Source: Rhodospirillales bacterium (GTDB lineage: Bacteria > Pseudomonadota > Alphaproteobacteria > Rhodospirillales > Casp-alpha2). Taken from it: 64,000 nucleotides of DNA. The translations under genes and the position numbers were made by a program. Of this stretch, positions 5,271-19,277 are shown one piece after another. The stretch's first letter is position 1, and each line of letters begins with the position of its first letter. The stretch is from NCBI GenBank assembly GCA_013203595.1, contig JABMNT010000121.1:1-64000 (forward strand). The letters are read 5' to 3'. A model generated the notes under the pieces. That model was given only the letters and a program-made list of their open reading frames with translations, did no database searches and was not told where the DNA came from.

Positions 5271-7463
5271 CTACGGGGCTTCCTCCGGCAGCGCTGGTGT
5301 CGGGTTATAGTGATCGGGTTTCTCCCCGCCCCTGGCTTTTCGCAGGCGCGCCGCGTCGGGAGTCTCAACCAGGGCCATGGCGGCGATGGCGTCCTTGCGA
5401 TTAACCGGCACCGGTTGGCTTGCATTGGGTGGCGGCATTCTGTTCGCATGATAGACGGCGATCTTGATTTGTTCGGGACTGACCTGCCGGGCGGGATCGA
5501 TATCCCTGGTGTTTGCACCCTTTGGGGTCACCCCCACCCCATCGACAACCTCAACATCAAACCACCACTTTTTCATGAGGTTTCGTTTGCCATGACCGAG
5601 CAGATCATCGAGCCTGACCGCGACCGGCACCAGCAACGGCTTCAACCACATAGCATTGATTCCCAGCCAGCTGGCAATGCGCTGGGCGAGCGGGCCGTCG
5701 GCGGTGACAACCTTGTTCAGCGGGCAGGTTTTCATACAGCGCCCGCAGGCCGATCCCCTGGCATTGGTCAGTCGGTAGCGGGTACAGCGTTCCACGTCCG
5801 GCTTCCAGGTCTCATAGCCGTTGAACATGATCTTGTCGCCAAAGGGAATTGCGTCACAGGGGCATTCGCGGGCGCACTTGCGGCAGCTCTGACAAAAATA
5901 CTGCAACCCGAAATCAATCGGTTTGTCGGTGACCAGTGGCATATCGGTGGTCAGCACCACGGCCTTGAAGCGGGGCCCGACAAAGGGATTGAGAACCAGT
6001 TCACCAATGCGGCTTAGCTCGCCAAGACCGGCCCACAGCACCAGCGGGATTTGCAGAACGTCACTGTCGACTACCGTGTGGGTACGCGATGAAAATCCCA
6101 GATCGCGCATCATCTCGGCCATCACGCCGGCAAGTTCGCCACCCCGCATATAGGCGCGCATGGACTGGGCGCCGGAAATCCAGTCATCACCACTGGCCCC
6201 TTCCATGGTCTCAAATTCCTGGTCAATCAACATGACCACGGCGTATTTATGATAGGGTGTGATCGGCTTGCCGTCCTTGCCATGGGAATACCAGGCATAG
6301 TCGGGAATTTCACAGATCCCGGTCAGGTCCGCGCCGAGAAAATAAGACAGGGATTTCAGGGCCTGGCTGTTGGCCGCCGGGTCTGCGCAGGCTGATCTGT
6401 CGGCACCGGCGTTGACCGGGCCATCCTGGGCCGGGACCATGCGCCCGATCGGATCGGCGAGCGCGTTTGATGTCGGATGCTTGAGCGAAAACCGGGTCCG
6501 CTCTTTGCGTGTCTTTTCACCCAGATCGCCTTTCACCGCACGCTCGAAAAACGCCGCACGGGCGGGCACCCGCGGCACTTCATCATCCAGAATAAGCGTT
6601 GTCGGACGCGCCACCTGTGTGACCCGCTCCATGGGGTATTTGCTGGCATGCGACGGCCGGGCCCGGCGCCGGTCTCTTTCGCGGCCTGATTCGGCTCCGT
6701 TCAAACCCCACCAGTAGCGCAGGTTTTTACCGTTGATGGCGGCTTTCGACAGCGGGCGGTCAACCGCCATTTCATAGTCGGTGGTGATCACAGACAGTGA
6801 AAAACGGTCATCCAGATAGGGGCTGACAACCTGGTCTTGCGGATCGCGAACGGCAATTCCCGCCATCACCGCCAGGCGCGCCATATCCACCGACGTGGCC
6901 CCCGCCACATGGGCCTGGGCCGCATAGCCATAGACCCGGATCAGGCGCGCCAGGCAGATCGCAATTTCCGCGGCCCGCATGTCGCCGGTTTCCCCGACAG
7001 CCGGCGCTATCCAGCTATGGGCCAGGGTCCCGGTTTCCGGCAGCCGTCCATGTTCGACCAGCAGCACCAATGCATAAGGATGCGCCACCCGGCGGTGACC
7101 GCCGTGCCAGGCCGCGTCGGGGATTTGGCAAATACCGACATGGGCCGCATTCATGAAATAGGCATAGCCCTTGGCATCGATCATCCGCAAATGTGGGTCT
7201 TCGGGAATGGGCGCCGGGCGCCGGGCCTTGTCACCGGCGATAAACTCGCTGAACAAATCGCGATATTTGCGGGCGGCTCTGGCCAGCGCCGCGTCGGCAA
7301 CGGGGCTCGGCGGGGCTGGCGACAGCGGTTGACGCGCCGCCTCCTGGCGCAAAACCCGGTCATCACGCGGCAATGATTCTAAGGGAAACGGGCCCAGATG
7401 ATAGGGCCGGTGTTTGGCCGCCGTTGTAAAAAACAAGAAACCGATCCCCGTCCCGTTAAACAC
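5271..7463 (-). CDS. cobalamin/FeS reductive dehalogenase homologue with duplicated core
   Basis: 730-aa soluble protein; no Tat signal. Residues about 370-520 match the RdhA core (GADLTGICEIPDYAW, RAYMRGGELAG, LVLWAGLGELSRIGELVLNPF, TTDMPLVTDKPIDFG). Two ferredoxin-type 4Fe-4S sites follow: C524-x2-C527-x2-C530-x3-C534 and C560 with C573-x2-C576-x3-C580. Residues about 95-240 repeat the same fold without clusters (AAHVGICQIPDAAW, SWIAPAVGETGDMRAAEIA, SPYLDDRFSLSVITTDY), so the protein contains an internal duplication. The C-terminal ferredoxin-reductase part of self-sufficient dehalogenases is absent, and no membrane anchor gene (rdhB) is near. The family uses B12 to remove halides; another reduction is possible. 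Start is GTG at 7463 with AGGG upstream. Confidence 0.82.
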   Translation of the reverse strand: MFNGTGIGFLFFTTAAKHRPYHLGPFPLESLPRDDRVLRQEAARQPLSPAPPSPVADAALARAARKYRDLFSEFIAGDKARRPAPIPEDPHLRMIDAKGYAYFMNAAHVGICQIPDAAWHGGHRRVAHPYALVLLVEHGRLPETGTLAHSWIAPAVGETGDMRAAEIAICLARLIRVYGYAAQAHVAGATSVDMARLAVMAGIAVRDPQDQVVSPYLDDRFSLSVITTDYEMAVDRPLSKAAINGKNLRYWWGLNGAESGRERDRRRARPSHASKYPMERVTQVARPTTLILDDEVPRVPARAAFFERAVKGDLGEKTRKERTRFSLKHPTSNALADPIGRMVPAQDGPVNAGADRSACADPAANSQALKSLSYFLGADLTGICEIPDYAWYSHGKDGKPITPYHKYAVVMLIDQEFETMEGASGDDWISGAQSMRAYMRGGELAGVMAEMMRDLGFSSRTHTVVDSDVLQIPLVLWAGLGELSRIGELVLNPFVGPRFKAVVLTTDMPLVTDKPIDFGLQYFCQSCRKCARECPCDAIPFGDKIMFNGYETWKPDVERCTRYRLTNARGSACGRCMKTCPLNKVVTADGPLAQRIASWLGINAMWLKPLLVPVAVRLDDLLGHGKRNLMKKWWFDVEVVDGVGVTPKGANTRDIDPARQVSPEQIKIAVYHANRMPPPNASQPVPVNRKDAIAAMALVETPDAARLRKARGGEKPDHYNPTPALPEEAP

Positions 7464-14880: not shown

Positions 14881-15462
14881 CTATTTATTTTCGCTATTAG
14901 GGGAAAACCGTATGACATTCCCTAGTTCCCGGCCAAGTTCGCGGAGTTCGTCCGGGGTTTGTGCGGTAGCAAAGCGCAAACGGAATGTGGTCGCGGATAA
15001 GACCAGATTCGAACGGTCATCAGCGATACGAAGGCGCTTCTGGACCGGTGAGAATAGGAGATAGACCAGACCGCCAACTGATAGCGAAGTAAAAACCGAA
15101 GGGAGAACACTTTTGCCCTGTCCAAAGAACGGAGATACGGCGGCCGCTAACGTCAAAACAACGATTACAATGCCTACGACTAAAATCCAATTGCCAACTG
15201 CTGCTTCTGCCTTTTCCCGATCTTTCAACACATTTTCGATTGCGGAGTCCAGTCTGTCCAATGCTTTTGATATTTCTGCTTTAAGGACGAAAGTTTCATC
15301 GGTGGTTAACCCGGTGTCGGACTCGACGCTTTCTTCCTTCCGATTGAATTGCGTGACCGCACTAGTCAATGCGTCGTCAACAACTTTGGCTGTTTCAATT
15401 TCCTGCAAAAGCAGGACGCGGGTTTCTTGGGTCATAAATTTCGTCAGATTAGGAAACTTCAT
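14881..15462 (-). CDS. small two-helix membrane protein (SLATT-like layout), partner of CHAT protein
   Basis: 193 aa. Residues 1-90 are charged and helix-prone (KALDRLDSAIENVLKDREKA); two hydrophobic helices follow at about 91-113 and 118-140 with a short Gly/Lys turn; a charged C-terminal helix follows (TPDELRELGRELG). No signal peptide. The layout (cytosolic helix, hairpin of two membrane helices, cytosolic tail) recalls the 2TM effectors, such as SLATT proteins, found beside nucleotide- or protease-based immune sensors, but I see no decisive family motif. The gene begins 20 bp after the CHAT gene with AAGGA before the ATG, so the two are co-transcribed. A role as substrate, pore or anchor of the CHAT protease is inferred. 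Confidence 0.8.
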   Translation of the reverse strand: MKFPNLTKFMTQETRVLLLQEIETAKVVDDALTSAVTQFNRKEESVESDTGLTTDETFVLKAEISKALDRLDSAIENVLKDREKAEAAVGNWILVVGIVIVVLTLAAAVSPFFGQGKSVLPSVFTSLSVGGLVYLLFSPVQKRLRIADDRSNLVLSATTFRLRFATAQTPDELRELGRELGNVIRFSPNSENK

Positions 15463-15482: not shown

Positions 15483-18400
15483 TTAACTAAGAGACAACCG
15501 GGCTGTCGGATTTCCATAGATACTATAAGCACTCCAAGTTGGGTCAGTATAGGGGCTGCGCGCATGCAACTTACGTTTAGCAACTCCGAGTGCATCTGCG
15601 AACGGGCGTCCTTCGAGCGGGCTGCGGTTCAACCAGCGCCAGATCATTGCATTTGGGGGCGGTAGCGCCAGTGAGTAAAACTCGGTTGCCAACTCGGTCG
15701 CGAACACTGTCTGCACTGGCCACTGTGAACCGATGACTGTCGCGCCGCGTTCGAGAAACGGCGTAGCAAGACCGGCGATCGCCGATCCGCCAAGGTCTTG
15801 TTGTTCCTCGAGAGATCCGCAGGCATTTATGAAGATCAGACTGGGTGGTCGTTTGATTTTATTGAGGAGCCGGGTCAAGCTCTCGGGCTCTAGCGCGATT
15901 GATGGGGTTAACCAAAACTGAGCGGCTTTGTTACCGGTCTCTGTTGCGGATGCGTGTCCTAACAAGTGAAGTACATCCACACCTTCCAATAGAGTATGAA
16001 CATCACTGAGATCCGTCACTCCGGTTCGTGTGCGCACATCTAGGATACCGGCGTGTCTCATCACTTTCGCCAGAGCCTGTTGCTCGTCGTGCCAGGCATT
16101 CGACTCTAATGGGGTGCCTGCCTCAGCTACAAAGAGTGTTGCGCATAACCGGCCCGTTGGTCCCTCGTGCTCGGCAATGCGGTCGGTCCGAATGACCCGC
16201 GAGACTGCGGTTCGTGCGAAAATAGGCTGGTTGTTAGACCCAATGAGATTATCCCATGGCATGTCGCTAAGTTCCCGGCTGACATCGAACAGCAGGTTTT
16301 CCGCATTAAAGGACTGTAACTCGAAGCGCATTTCAGTTGGCAGGCTCTGAGTGAGTAGGTTTGTCATGCCATCGAGAGTTTTAGAGAATATCTCACGCCC
16401 CGCGGGTGTCCGGGTTTCCGGCGCGAGGACGTTGAGGGAACGCAGCTTCTGTCGGAGGTCATTGAAGGGAAATGCACCTGTTTCCGACACAGCGCTGAGC
16501 CGGAGAGGTGCACCGGCCGCAGATAAAACCGCATTGAGGCGTCCCTGATCGTCCGTTGAAAGACTGATCGTGCGATCGATATTTCCAAGAAGAATGCGCC
16601 ACCGTCGACGTCCCAGCCTGCGGAGGATCAAGTCGAGAGCTACGGGGCTTCGAACCACGATGAATAAACTAATCAGCACAGCCAATACTCCGGCTGCCAA
16701 AATGCGCGGATCTTCAGACCATGGTCGCACATAAGTCAACGTGGCATGGACAGGGTCGGATACCTGCCCTGCCAAATCGATGAATTGCGCTTCGATTGCA
16801 TAAAGCACATCTGGGCTCAGGCCGGTTAGGGTGAATTCTCCGTCTGGTTCGGCTATGCGGGTCGCGCTTTCGTCAATCGGCGGATCAACGCGCACCCGCA
16901 ACTCTCCTTCGGATGGCGGATAGGCGCGACCATCGAGGTCAAAGGATAGCGAGATATAGGGCTCGGATATTTCGCTCGGTGGTAATTTTGTTAAACTAAG
17001 ACTAGGAATATGACGTGGTGGTTTAACCGCGAAGAGCGCATTTTCGGCAGCGAGATCGAGCCGGAACCCAAACGCACTCTCGGTGTCTGGTGTGATAGCA
17101 AATGCCGTTGTCCGCCGTTGTAACCGTTCATCTATTAGTGCCACACGCTTAAAGCCATCACTGTTACGTAGGAAAACACCTCGATCCGTGAGGACAAACT
17201 CTGCACCGTCGGGTGACATAGTGGCATCGTGAAACACGTAGGGTGTATCGTTCGTGACGTTCTCCGTCTCTGCGATCAATTGCTGGCCATCAAATTGCAC
17301 TGATACGGGGTAACCCCAGGCACCCCAGGCTATCACTGCCCGTTGGCCAGACCTTAGCGTTAAGGCACCAAACGAATTTTTCTTGGCATTTGAGCGAAGG
17401 GGAAAGACATCCGTTTCCAGCCAGGCACCCGCGGGAGTCCGTACGGCGACCGTGTCGCTCCCCAAGGCCCAGAGGTAACCGTCGGCATCGCAAATAAGAT
17501 CACTGATCGCTGCGCCACCTATATTTCCGTGCAATGAATGATCGACTTCCCAAGACCCGTTGACCAGCCGCTCAATGCTGCTGCTCCAAACGAAACCCAG
17601 ATAAACCGCCGCGTCAGGGCAGACTGCGAGTGCTGCAGGGGCATTGGGGCGGGATGTTATGGGGGCGTCAGCTTGCCGAGTTACGGCGGTTCCATCTGTA
17701 GCCAGATAGAGGCCATTGGCATGTAGTATCCAGACAACGCCGTTCGCGGATTCAAACAGGAGTGGTACGCGCGAATACGGTTGTGACTTGGCTGCGGGCG
17801 GCAATACTATTCGCCATTCACCTTCCTCCAAGACAGTAACCGCTCCAGCGCTATCGCCTACGAAGAGCCGACCATCCCGCGTCCGCAACAGCGCCGTAAG
17901 CCGGTCTGTGGCAATTGTTGGCAGCTCTGTTGTATGCAGATAATGGCGCCAGAGACCGTCAGAAGTCGCCACCCAAAGGCTTCCGGTTTTGGTTAGAGCG
18001 AAGCGTGCTGCCCGGCCGATTCCATTAGGCGCATTGCTGAAATACATTCGCCATGATACCCTGTCAAACCGGAACACACCTGCAGCAGTCGAGGCCCAGT
18101 ACTCGCCGGGAGCCGTCTCGATCAGGTCGTAACAGGCGCCGTCAAATATCTGTTGCGCGGCGGGCTCAGAACCGGGTGTGACGATAAAACAGCCGCCATT
18201 ATCGTAGTGCGGCGTCATCGCGACCAGCAGGAGGCCATTACTGGTTGGACGGAAAGATGCCACGGCATCACTATTAGCCGTGTAAGAATGGGCTGGCTGC
18301 GCCTTACCGGTCTTGAGATCAATCTCCGAAATTTCACCACGATTGGCTGCGAAGAGCCGCCCTCCCAGCATTGTGAGCCGTTGGGTGTTCTTGATCACAA

Positions 18401-19028
18401 TGATCGGGCGACCCAAAGCCTTGGCCATGCGATTTTCAAAACCGGCATCAAGCCGCCAATCATCAAGGCCGATGGCCAGGCGACCATCTGGCAGCGCCGC
18501 GAAACTGAACGAGCCTCTAATATCTCGTGAATTCAATTCGGTCAGCCCATCGGGGCTCGCAAGGAATATTTCACGCCATATTGTCGAGATTAGAAGATCA
18601 TCACCCAGCATGATCATATCGTGGGAGATGATTGTCGGAATTGGTGCAACTCGACCACTCGCCCAGCGCTCGACCAGCGTGACATCGCTACCAGTTTTCC
18701 GACGGAGGACCCCGCCATTGCCCGCGATCCAGATATCTCCACGTGGAGTGACTTGAACCTTTGCGGGTAGGCTGTCAGAAGCTATGGTTGGGATGAAATC
18801 CCAACGGCCGGGAAACATTGGCGGTGGTGCGGTGTCGATTGTAATCGTCGGAATTTTTCCGACGTTGAAAAGCCTTTCCCGTCCGTCAACGGGGTTCGTG
18901 CAGAAAACGGCAATGACCGTCGCAAATACCGAGAAACGGCAGATCTGTGTAATCACACGTCCTATTGTCAATTTTAAATCAATTGCGAACATATTTGGAT
19001 ATATTTGCGGGTAGCTAAACACAACCAA
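15483..19028 (-). CDS. membrane receptor with beta-propeller sensor and cytosolic CHAT caspase-like protease
   Basis: 1181 aa. Order: N-terminal signal/anchor (about 28-44); beta-propeller repeats (about 55-665) rich in D-G-x-L-W/F-x-A units such as PRGDIWIAGNGGV, TGSLWVATSDGLW, DGRLFVGDSAG and DGYLWALGSD; an Ig-like Y_Y_Y-type domain (675-768); one membrane helix (776-793); a linker; and a CHAT domain (about 955-1180) with the His of LLGHAS (H1025) and Cys of INACGS (C1070). This is the sensor layout of hybrid two-component receptors with a caspase-like peptidase in place of the kinase. It probably senses a periplasmic ligand and cleaves a cytosolic or membrane target. Start: TTG 19028 has GGAGGAGAGG about ten bases upstream; ATG 18992 is the alternative. 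Confidence 0.87.
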   Translation of the reverse strand: MVVFSYPQIYPNMFAIDLKLTIGRVITQICRFSVFATVIAVFCTNPVDGRERLFNVGKIPTITIDTAPPPMFPGRWDFIPTIASDSLPAKVQVTPRGDIWIAGNGGVLRRKTGSDVTLVERWASGRVAPIPTIISHDMIMLGDDLLISTIWREIFLASPDGLTELNSRDIRGSFSFAALPDGRLAIGLDDWRLDAGFENRMAKALGRPIIVIKNTQRLTMLGGRLFAANRGEISEIDLKTGKAQPAHSYTANSDAVASFRPTSNGLLLVAMTPHYDNGGCFIVTPGSEPAAQQIFDGACYDLIETAPGEYWASTAAGVFRFDRVSWRMYFSNAPNGIGRAARFALTKTGSLWVATSDGLWRHYLHTTELPTIATDRLTALLRTRDGRLFVGDSAGAVTVLEEGEWRIVLPPAAKSQPYSRVPLLFESANGVVWILHANGLYLATDGTAVTRQADAPITSRPNAPAALAVCPDAAVYLGFVWSSSIERLVNGSWEVDHSLHGNIGGAAISDLICDADGYLWALGSDTVAVRTPAGAWLETDVFPLRSNAKKNSFGALTLRSGQRAVIAWGAWGYPVSVQFDGQQLIAETENVTNDTPYVFHDATMSPDGAEFVLTDRGVFLRNSDGFKRVALIDERLQRRTTAFAITPDTESAFGFRLDLAAENALFAVKPPRHIPSLSLTKLPPSEISEPYISLSFDLDGRAYPPSEGELRVRVDPPIDESATRIAEPDGEFTLTGLSPDVLYAIEAQFIDLAGQVSDPVHATLTYVRPWSEDPRILAAGVLAVLISLFIVVRSPVALDLILRRLGRRRWRILLGNIDRTISLSTDDQGRLNAVLSAAGAPLRLSAVSETGAFPFNDLRQKLRSLNVLAPETRTPAGREIFSKTLDGMTNLLTQSLPTEMRFELQSFNAENLLFDVSRELSDMPWDNLIGSNNQPIFARTAVSRVIRTDRIAEHEGPTGRLCATLFVAEAGTPLESNAWHDEQQALAKVMRHAGILDVRTRTGVTDLSDVHTLLEGVDVLHLLGHASATETGNKAAQFWLTPSIALEPESLTRLLNKIKRPPSLIFINACGSLEEQQDLGGSAIAGLATPFLERGATVIGSQWPVQTVFATELATEFYSLALPPPNAMIWRWLNRSPLEGRPFADALGVAKRKLHARSPYTDPTWSAYSIYGNPTARLSLS

Positions 19029-19277
19029 ACATAGTCGACCTCTCCTCCCCTTGATTCTCGCACGGACTTGTCCAAGTTCATATTATTGACTTTAATATTT
19101 AGAGGTAACTCTATTGAATGATCGAATACAATGCAACTGTAAGCTTTATAACACAGGAGAGGTTTAGAAATAAAACTAATTAGAAATCCTGGGATTATTC
19201 ATCATTTATTTCAGGAGACCGAATAAATCCGATGGTAGCAATTCACTTGGTGAACAACCGGCATCAGTTTCAGTAAA

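Follow-up and report, generated by a model that had tools for sequence, protein, structure and literature searches.

A reading frame of 1181 codons in the window (the whole stretch of 64,000 nucleotides analyzed, originating from a Rhodospirillales bacterium) encodes a protein that joins two known kinds of module in a new variation. Its N-terminal half is homologous, at the sequence level, to the double beta-propeller sensors of HTCS proteins, and its C-terminal part is a CHAT domain with a conserved His-Cys dyad; one membrane helix lies between them. A gene encoding a small membrane protein with two predicted helices (2-TM protein) follows directly. The product is probably a single-pass transmembrane receptor-protease, in which a periplasmic ligand would switch on proteolysis in the cytosol, the 2-TM protein perhaps being the substrate. 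Features of the locus are summarized in Table 1.

Table 1. Features of the receptor locus (nucleotide positions in the window).
Feature	Position	Strand	Residues	Remarks
Putative propeller-TM-CHAT receptor-protease gene	15483..19028	-	1181 codons	TTG start as listed; based on the ORF list and a full-length Ti-plasmid relative
N-terminal signal peptide or anchor	18882..18992	-	~13-49	hydrophobic 25-43 after positive residues
Double beta-propeller ectodomain	17004..18812	-	~73-675	14 blade motifs ~42 residues apart; based on Reg_prop, 4a2l, hhalign and motif register
Linker domain before membrane	16710..17000	-	~677-773	occupies the Y_Y_Y position of sensors; without Pfam match
Transmembrane helix	16647..16703	-	776-794	Arg-rich flank; same layout in the Ti-plasmid relative
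CHAT caspase-like protease domain (predicted)	15513..16355	-	892-1172	His1025 and Cys1070; Pfam, alignment and structure match
193-aa two-helix membrane protein	14881..15462	-	helices ~92-110 and ~119-137	candidate partner or substrate

The reading frame, whose span the first-pass annotation had given exactly, was unbroken in an ORF check of the window. An in-frame ATG is present at codon 13 of the frame as listed. Scanning the encoded protein against Pfam returned CHAT and Reg_prop above cut-off and no TPR repeats, and NCBIfam and PADLOC scans yielded nothing beyond the Pfam matches. Moreover, the GC content of the receptor gene (0.55) and of the downstream gene (0.48) is lower than that of the flanking genes (0.62-0.64). 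Upstream of the receptor gene, an AT-rich gap of ~250 bp was observed (19015-19277, GC 0.37). Immediately ahead of the TTG start, a strong GGGGAGGAG site is directly followed by a very short ATG frame (MFGCV, then stop). Promoter and terminator scans at the locus performed no better than chance.

Propeller ectodomain and membrane topology

The Reg_prop assignment is based on the summed Pfam score (29.4 bits vs. a cut-off of 20.4), with each single repeat below the cut-off. The best solved-structure matches were HTCS sensors, namely 4a2l (E 1.5e-4 from the single sequence, E 4.8e-9 from a two-sequence profile), followed by 3ott, 3va6 and 3v9f. Furthermore, hhalign against six Reg_prop sensors reported a probability of 98% over residues 260-670. 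Applying a blade-motif profile built from Reg_prop sensors, 14 spaced motifs were detected with a summed score of 112 vs. a shuffle maximum of -11 (0/500 shuffles), and the blade-motif counts were matched in none of 5000 shuffles. The same 14 sites, at ~42-residue spacing, are present in register in the Ti-plasmid relative at ~25% identity. Since site picking enforced a minimum spacing of 30, it is the scores and the register between both proteins that carry weight, not the blade count alone. Residues 348-360 (TGSLWVATSDGLW) and 384-394 (RDGRLFVGDSA), where D-G-x-L-W/F-x-A repeats had been reported, both represent blades, and the repeat is real as judged by the shuffle tests. HTCS sensors have been described as carrying two seven-bladed propellers, i.e., 14 blades, which bind oligosaccharides (PMC3243724).

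A single-sequence AlphaFold model of the whole receptor was uninformative (pLDDT 35), so the propeller assignment rests on homology. The N-terminal half had been expected to form a propeller and no other fold, and its relationship to HTCS/Reg_prop double propellers bears this out. The proposed likeness to hybrid two-component receptors holds for the ectodomain, but the label is too narrow: the closest propeller relatives examined carry a GGDEF output as often as a histidine kinase. CHAT is thus a further output behind the Reg_prop ectodomain, which is widely shared.

The first-pass annotation had also placed a Y_Y_Y-like domain ahead of the membrane. Pfam reported no Y_Y_Y in the linker. In hhalign comparisons, linker and helix aligned in register with Y_Y_Y and helix, and after removal of the helix the score fell within the range of column shuffles. 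Because the alignment signal comes from the membrane helix, Y_Y_Y is unproven in this receptor.

The transmembrane helix is the strongest in the protein and its one strong internal helix, in agreement with the single helix originally described. Within the 30 residues following it, 7 K/R and 2 D/E were counted in the receptor and 6 K/R and 3 D/E in the Ti-plasmid relative, which likewise starts with a signal-peptide-like stretch. According to the positive-inside rule, a positive flank marks the cytosolic side. The propeller is therefore predicted to be periplasmic and the CHAT domain cytosolic, as had been proposed; the charge pattern points away from a CHAT domain located outside.

CHAT output domain and comparison with known systems

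The C-terminal CHAT domain claimed previously was recovered by Pfam (PF12770) with E 9e-19 and 68.4 bits vs. a curated cut-off of 24. It is the sole Pfam match after the helix, where histidine kinase, receiver and HTH domains are absent. The dyad of His1025 and Cys1070 is invariant across ten diverse aligned CHATs, and the CHAT profile matched, by sequence, Craspase TPR-CHAT, Csx29, SAVED-CHAT and separase chains. A partial CHAT model computed by AlphaFold from a three-row alignment was poor overall (mean pLDDT 45), with a core mostly at ~50-78; its structural matches comprised SAVED-CHAT (Z 15.4), DdvA (13.9) and Csx29 (12.9), and also separase and caspases. As modeled, the receptor's CHAT domain has a caspase-like fold. 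In Craspase, activation shifts the dyad H585/C627 from ~7 to 3 angstrom, and mutation of C627 abolishes cleavage (PMC9729208).

With the HTCS/Reg_prop-Y_Y_Y sensors (4a2l, 3ott, 3v9f), the receptor shares a signal sequence, 14 blades in ~600 residues, the linker position and one helix before the cytosolic output (PMC3243724). In contrast to these sensors, it possesses no kinase, receiver or DNA-binding domain, its output is CHAT and Y_Y_Y is not demonstrable; lacking a phosphorelay, it is not an HTCS. Reg_prop-Y_Y_Y-GGDEF sensors combine an ectodomain of this type with an output other than a kinase, the output being a cyclase in their case and a predicted protease here. Craspase TPR-CHAT/Csx29 and SAVED-CHAT have the CHAT fold, the His-Cys dyad and activation by a sensing module in common with the receptor, but they are soluble proteins whose cues are RNA or cyclic nucleotides, whereas the receptor is predicted to be membrane-anchored with its sensor outside. 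HetF of Anabaena likewise combines CHAT with one membrane segment (PMC8406250); its CHAT domain is N-terminal and it contains TPRs and no propeller, while the CHAT domain of the receptor is C-terminal and follows the propeller. Like the receptor, DdvA (8rot, 8rw5) is a transmembrane protein of signalling that contains a CHAT-fold region, although DdvA is an anti-sigma factor and its sensor part differs. The receptor is neither an HTCS nor a TPR-CHAT protein, and as a defence system it is a candidate only. No paper naming the combination of Reg_prop and CHAT was found in the literature searched (subscription journals excluded).

Relatives, distribution and gene neighbourhoods

A full-length relative was found on four Agrobacterium Ti-plasmid records (24% identity over 94% coverage). 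This protein, WP_080830745.1, is annotated as 'CHAT domain-containing protein' and has the same whole architecture. The CHAT domains of both proteins are reciprocal best matches (E 1e-33 vs. 1e-15 or weaker) with 28% identity, and both keep His and Cys. They are sisters in a CHAT tree (SH-aLRT 87); since both branches are long, this join is weak and the reciprocal-best match is the stronger evidence. In addition, a broken copy in three frames that has lost its CHAT end is located on plasmid pOM4 of Mesorhizobium onobrychidis (L034:7665-10609) and is 46% identical to the Ti version.

Overlapping genome samples were searched, comprising ~60 close relatives, 397 other genomes of the phylum, 384 others of the class and 316 others of the order. 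Among these ~1000 genomes, matches covered one half or the other and no other protein contained both; within the set of ~60 close relatives and within the 317 genomes of the order, the source genome is the sole carrier. The fusion is therefore rare and probably spreads horizontally, its rarity being an estimate, as two candidates per genome were scored in the larger draws. The low GC values given above agree with this. A peptide-pattern search in the genome and viral contigs and a search of phage records returned no receptor relatives, the viral contigs containing TPR-type CHATs and distant Reg_prop proteins only.

In the class as a whole, further CHATs occur frequently (70/337 genomes). Scanning the N-terminal regions of 110 of them revealed TPRs in most, and Reg_prop was absent among the 25 families listed. 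The fusion implies an exchange of sensory modules between signalling and proteolytic outputs, as suggested in the first-pass annotation, and so does this census, in which other CHATs are mostly located behind TPRs. The next-nearest CHATs (L050:6725-10087 and L035:1891-7353) occur with DUF7379 plus DUF7363 or an LCAT-like region, a little-known arrangement. In many TPR-CHATs of the class (e.g., at loci L116, L130, L120 and L105), a hydrophobic stretch resembling a signal peptide is found at the start; the CHAT domains of those proteins may thus often function outside the cytosol.

The 193-aa gene begins 20 bp after the receptor stop, behind an AAGGA ribosome site. Its product matched no family above cut-off, including those of Pfam and NCBIfam, and no relatives were found in the 397 other genomes of the phylum or in plasmids. 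Its identification as a gasdermin was rejected, as none of the gasdermin families of Pfam, NCBIfam or PADLOC was matched, and so was its identification as one of the known TRADD-associated membrane domains, again for want of a family match. In bacterial gasdermin operons, a gasdermin gene lies beside a protease, whereas the receptor locus has no gasdermin match. For neither the receptor nor the downstream gene did PADLOC report a family up to E 1.

Genes for sugar and cyclitol metabolism, including gguABC, iolD and TRAP transporter genes, surround the receptor gene in the window, and not a defence island. An adjacent pair of the flanking pirin and methyltransferase genes was not found in relatives by synteny search, so an insertion site is not demonstrable. 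Elsewhere in the window, a 730-aa ORF (5271-7463) had no Pfam match at E 1e-6.

At the Ti-plasmid locus, an S8 subtilase gene and not a 2-TM protein gene follows the receptor relative after 33 bp, and then a TIR gene; caspase, ThsB-like TIR and trypsin-nuclease genes are also nearby. Besides the receptor relative and another gene with a CHAT annotation, the dense cluster (L033, pTi_AR125 164243-183587) encodes two S8 subtilases, two TIR proteins scoring as ThsB-like, a trypsin-Endonuclease_NS protein and a caspase, and it looks like a conflict-type island. A CHAT receptor followed by a candidate target that differs per locus suggests a substrate role for the downstream protein. This role has no comparative support, since the 193-aa gene is an orphan and is missing at the Ti-plasmid locus, where the subtilase is found instead.

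Proposed mechanism and alternative explanations

In the proposed mechanism, the periplasmic double seven-bladed propeller would bind a ligand; by analogy to HTCS, this would probably be a glycan, or else a molecule of the envelope or of an invader. The short linker domain and the single helix would relay the ligand-driven change to CHAT on the cytosolic side. Re-positioning of CHAT, or pairing of two CHATs, would then bring His1025 and Cys1070 into the active state. The target cut by the protease would lie in the cytosol or close to the membrane, the product of the directly following 2-TM gene being the most plausible one. Such cleavage would result in a toxic or defence response directed at the membrane, or else in a signal by regulated proteolysis.

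Regarding the purpose of such a receptor, the Ti-plasmid surroundings favour conflict and those in the window favour metabolism, neither being decisive. A defence or self-killing receptor, in which an invader or envelope-damage cue would act through CHAT on a toxic membrane protein or a protease cascade, is possible. It is consistent with the Ti-plasmid relative lying among TIR, caspase, subtilase and trypsin-nuclease genes, peptidases often being combined with TIR in conflict systems (PMC10907252), and with low GC and a patchy distribution, which fit mobile accessory genes. However, PADLOC yielded no match, the copy in the window is surrounded by metabolic genes, and phage DNA or RNA would be invisible to a periplasmic sensor. 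Those same metabolic neighbours, together with the sensing of oligosaccharides by HTCS propellers and the CHAT-fold region of the transmembrane anti-sigma factor DdvA (8rot/8rw5), would suit a nutrient regulator, where sugar on the propeller would lead CHAT to cleave a membrane-held regulator and change transcription of the neighbouring sugar genes. This appears doubtful: the flanking genes are not syntenic in relatives, therefore the neighbourhood may be chance, and the downstream protein has no sigma, anti-sigma or DNA-binding domain above cut-off.

Two further explanations question the activity of the protein itself. A CHAT score of 72 bits vs. 100-240 for typical TPR-CHATs of the class indicates a divergent domain and, protease activity being predicted from sequence, CHAT might serve as a non-catalytic signalling or oligomerisation module. 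Retention of His1025 and Cys1070, both in the ten aligned CHATs and in the relative with 28% CHAT identity, argues against this quite unlikely reading. That the gene is a recent import, functionless in its host and heading to decay, would fit its single occurrence among ~60 close relatives and 317 genomes of the order, its low GC and the broken Mesorhizobium copy. Such a fate is very unlikely, since all 1181 codons are intact and catalytic and blade residues are kept at ~25% identity from the relative.

The receptor-protease reading remains the preferred one. Its most far-reaching form is speculative and rather unlikely: a bacterial transmembrane 'death receptor', in which an outside ligand would switch on an inside caspase-like protease within one polypeptide, acting on a dedicated membrane-protein substrate and spread by plasmids between alphaproteobacteria. 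The best-understood CHAT proteases, Craspase/Csx29 and SAVED-CHAT, respond to internal cues. If the receptor-protease reading is true, Reg_prop sensors would gain proteolysis as an output through the direct coupling of an outside cue to a caspase-like protease inside the cell, and the gene pair would allow outside-in protease signalling in bacteria to be studied in a simple system of two genes.
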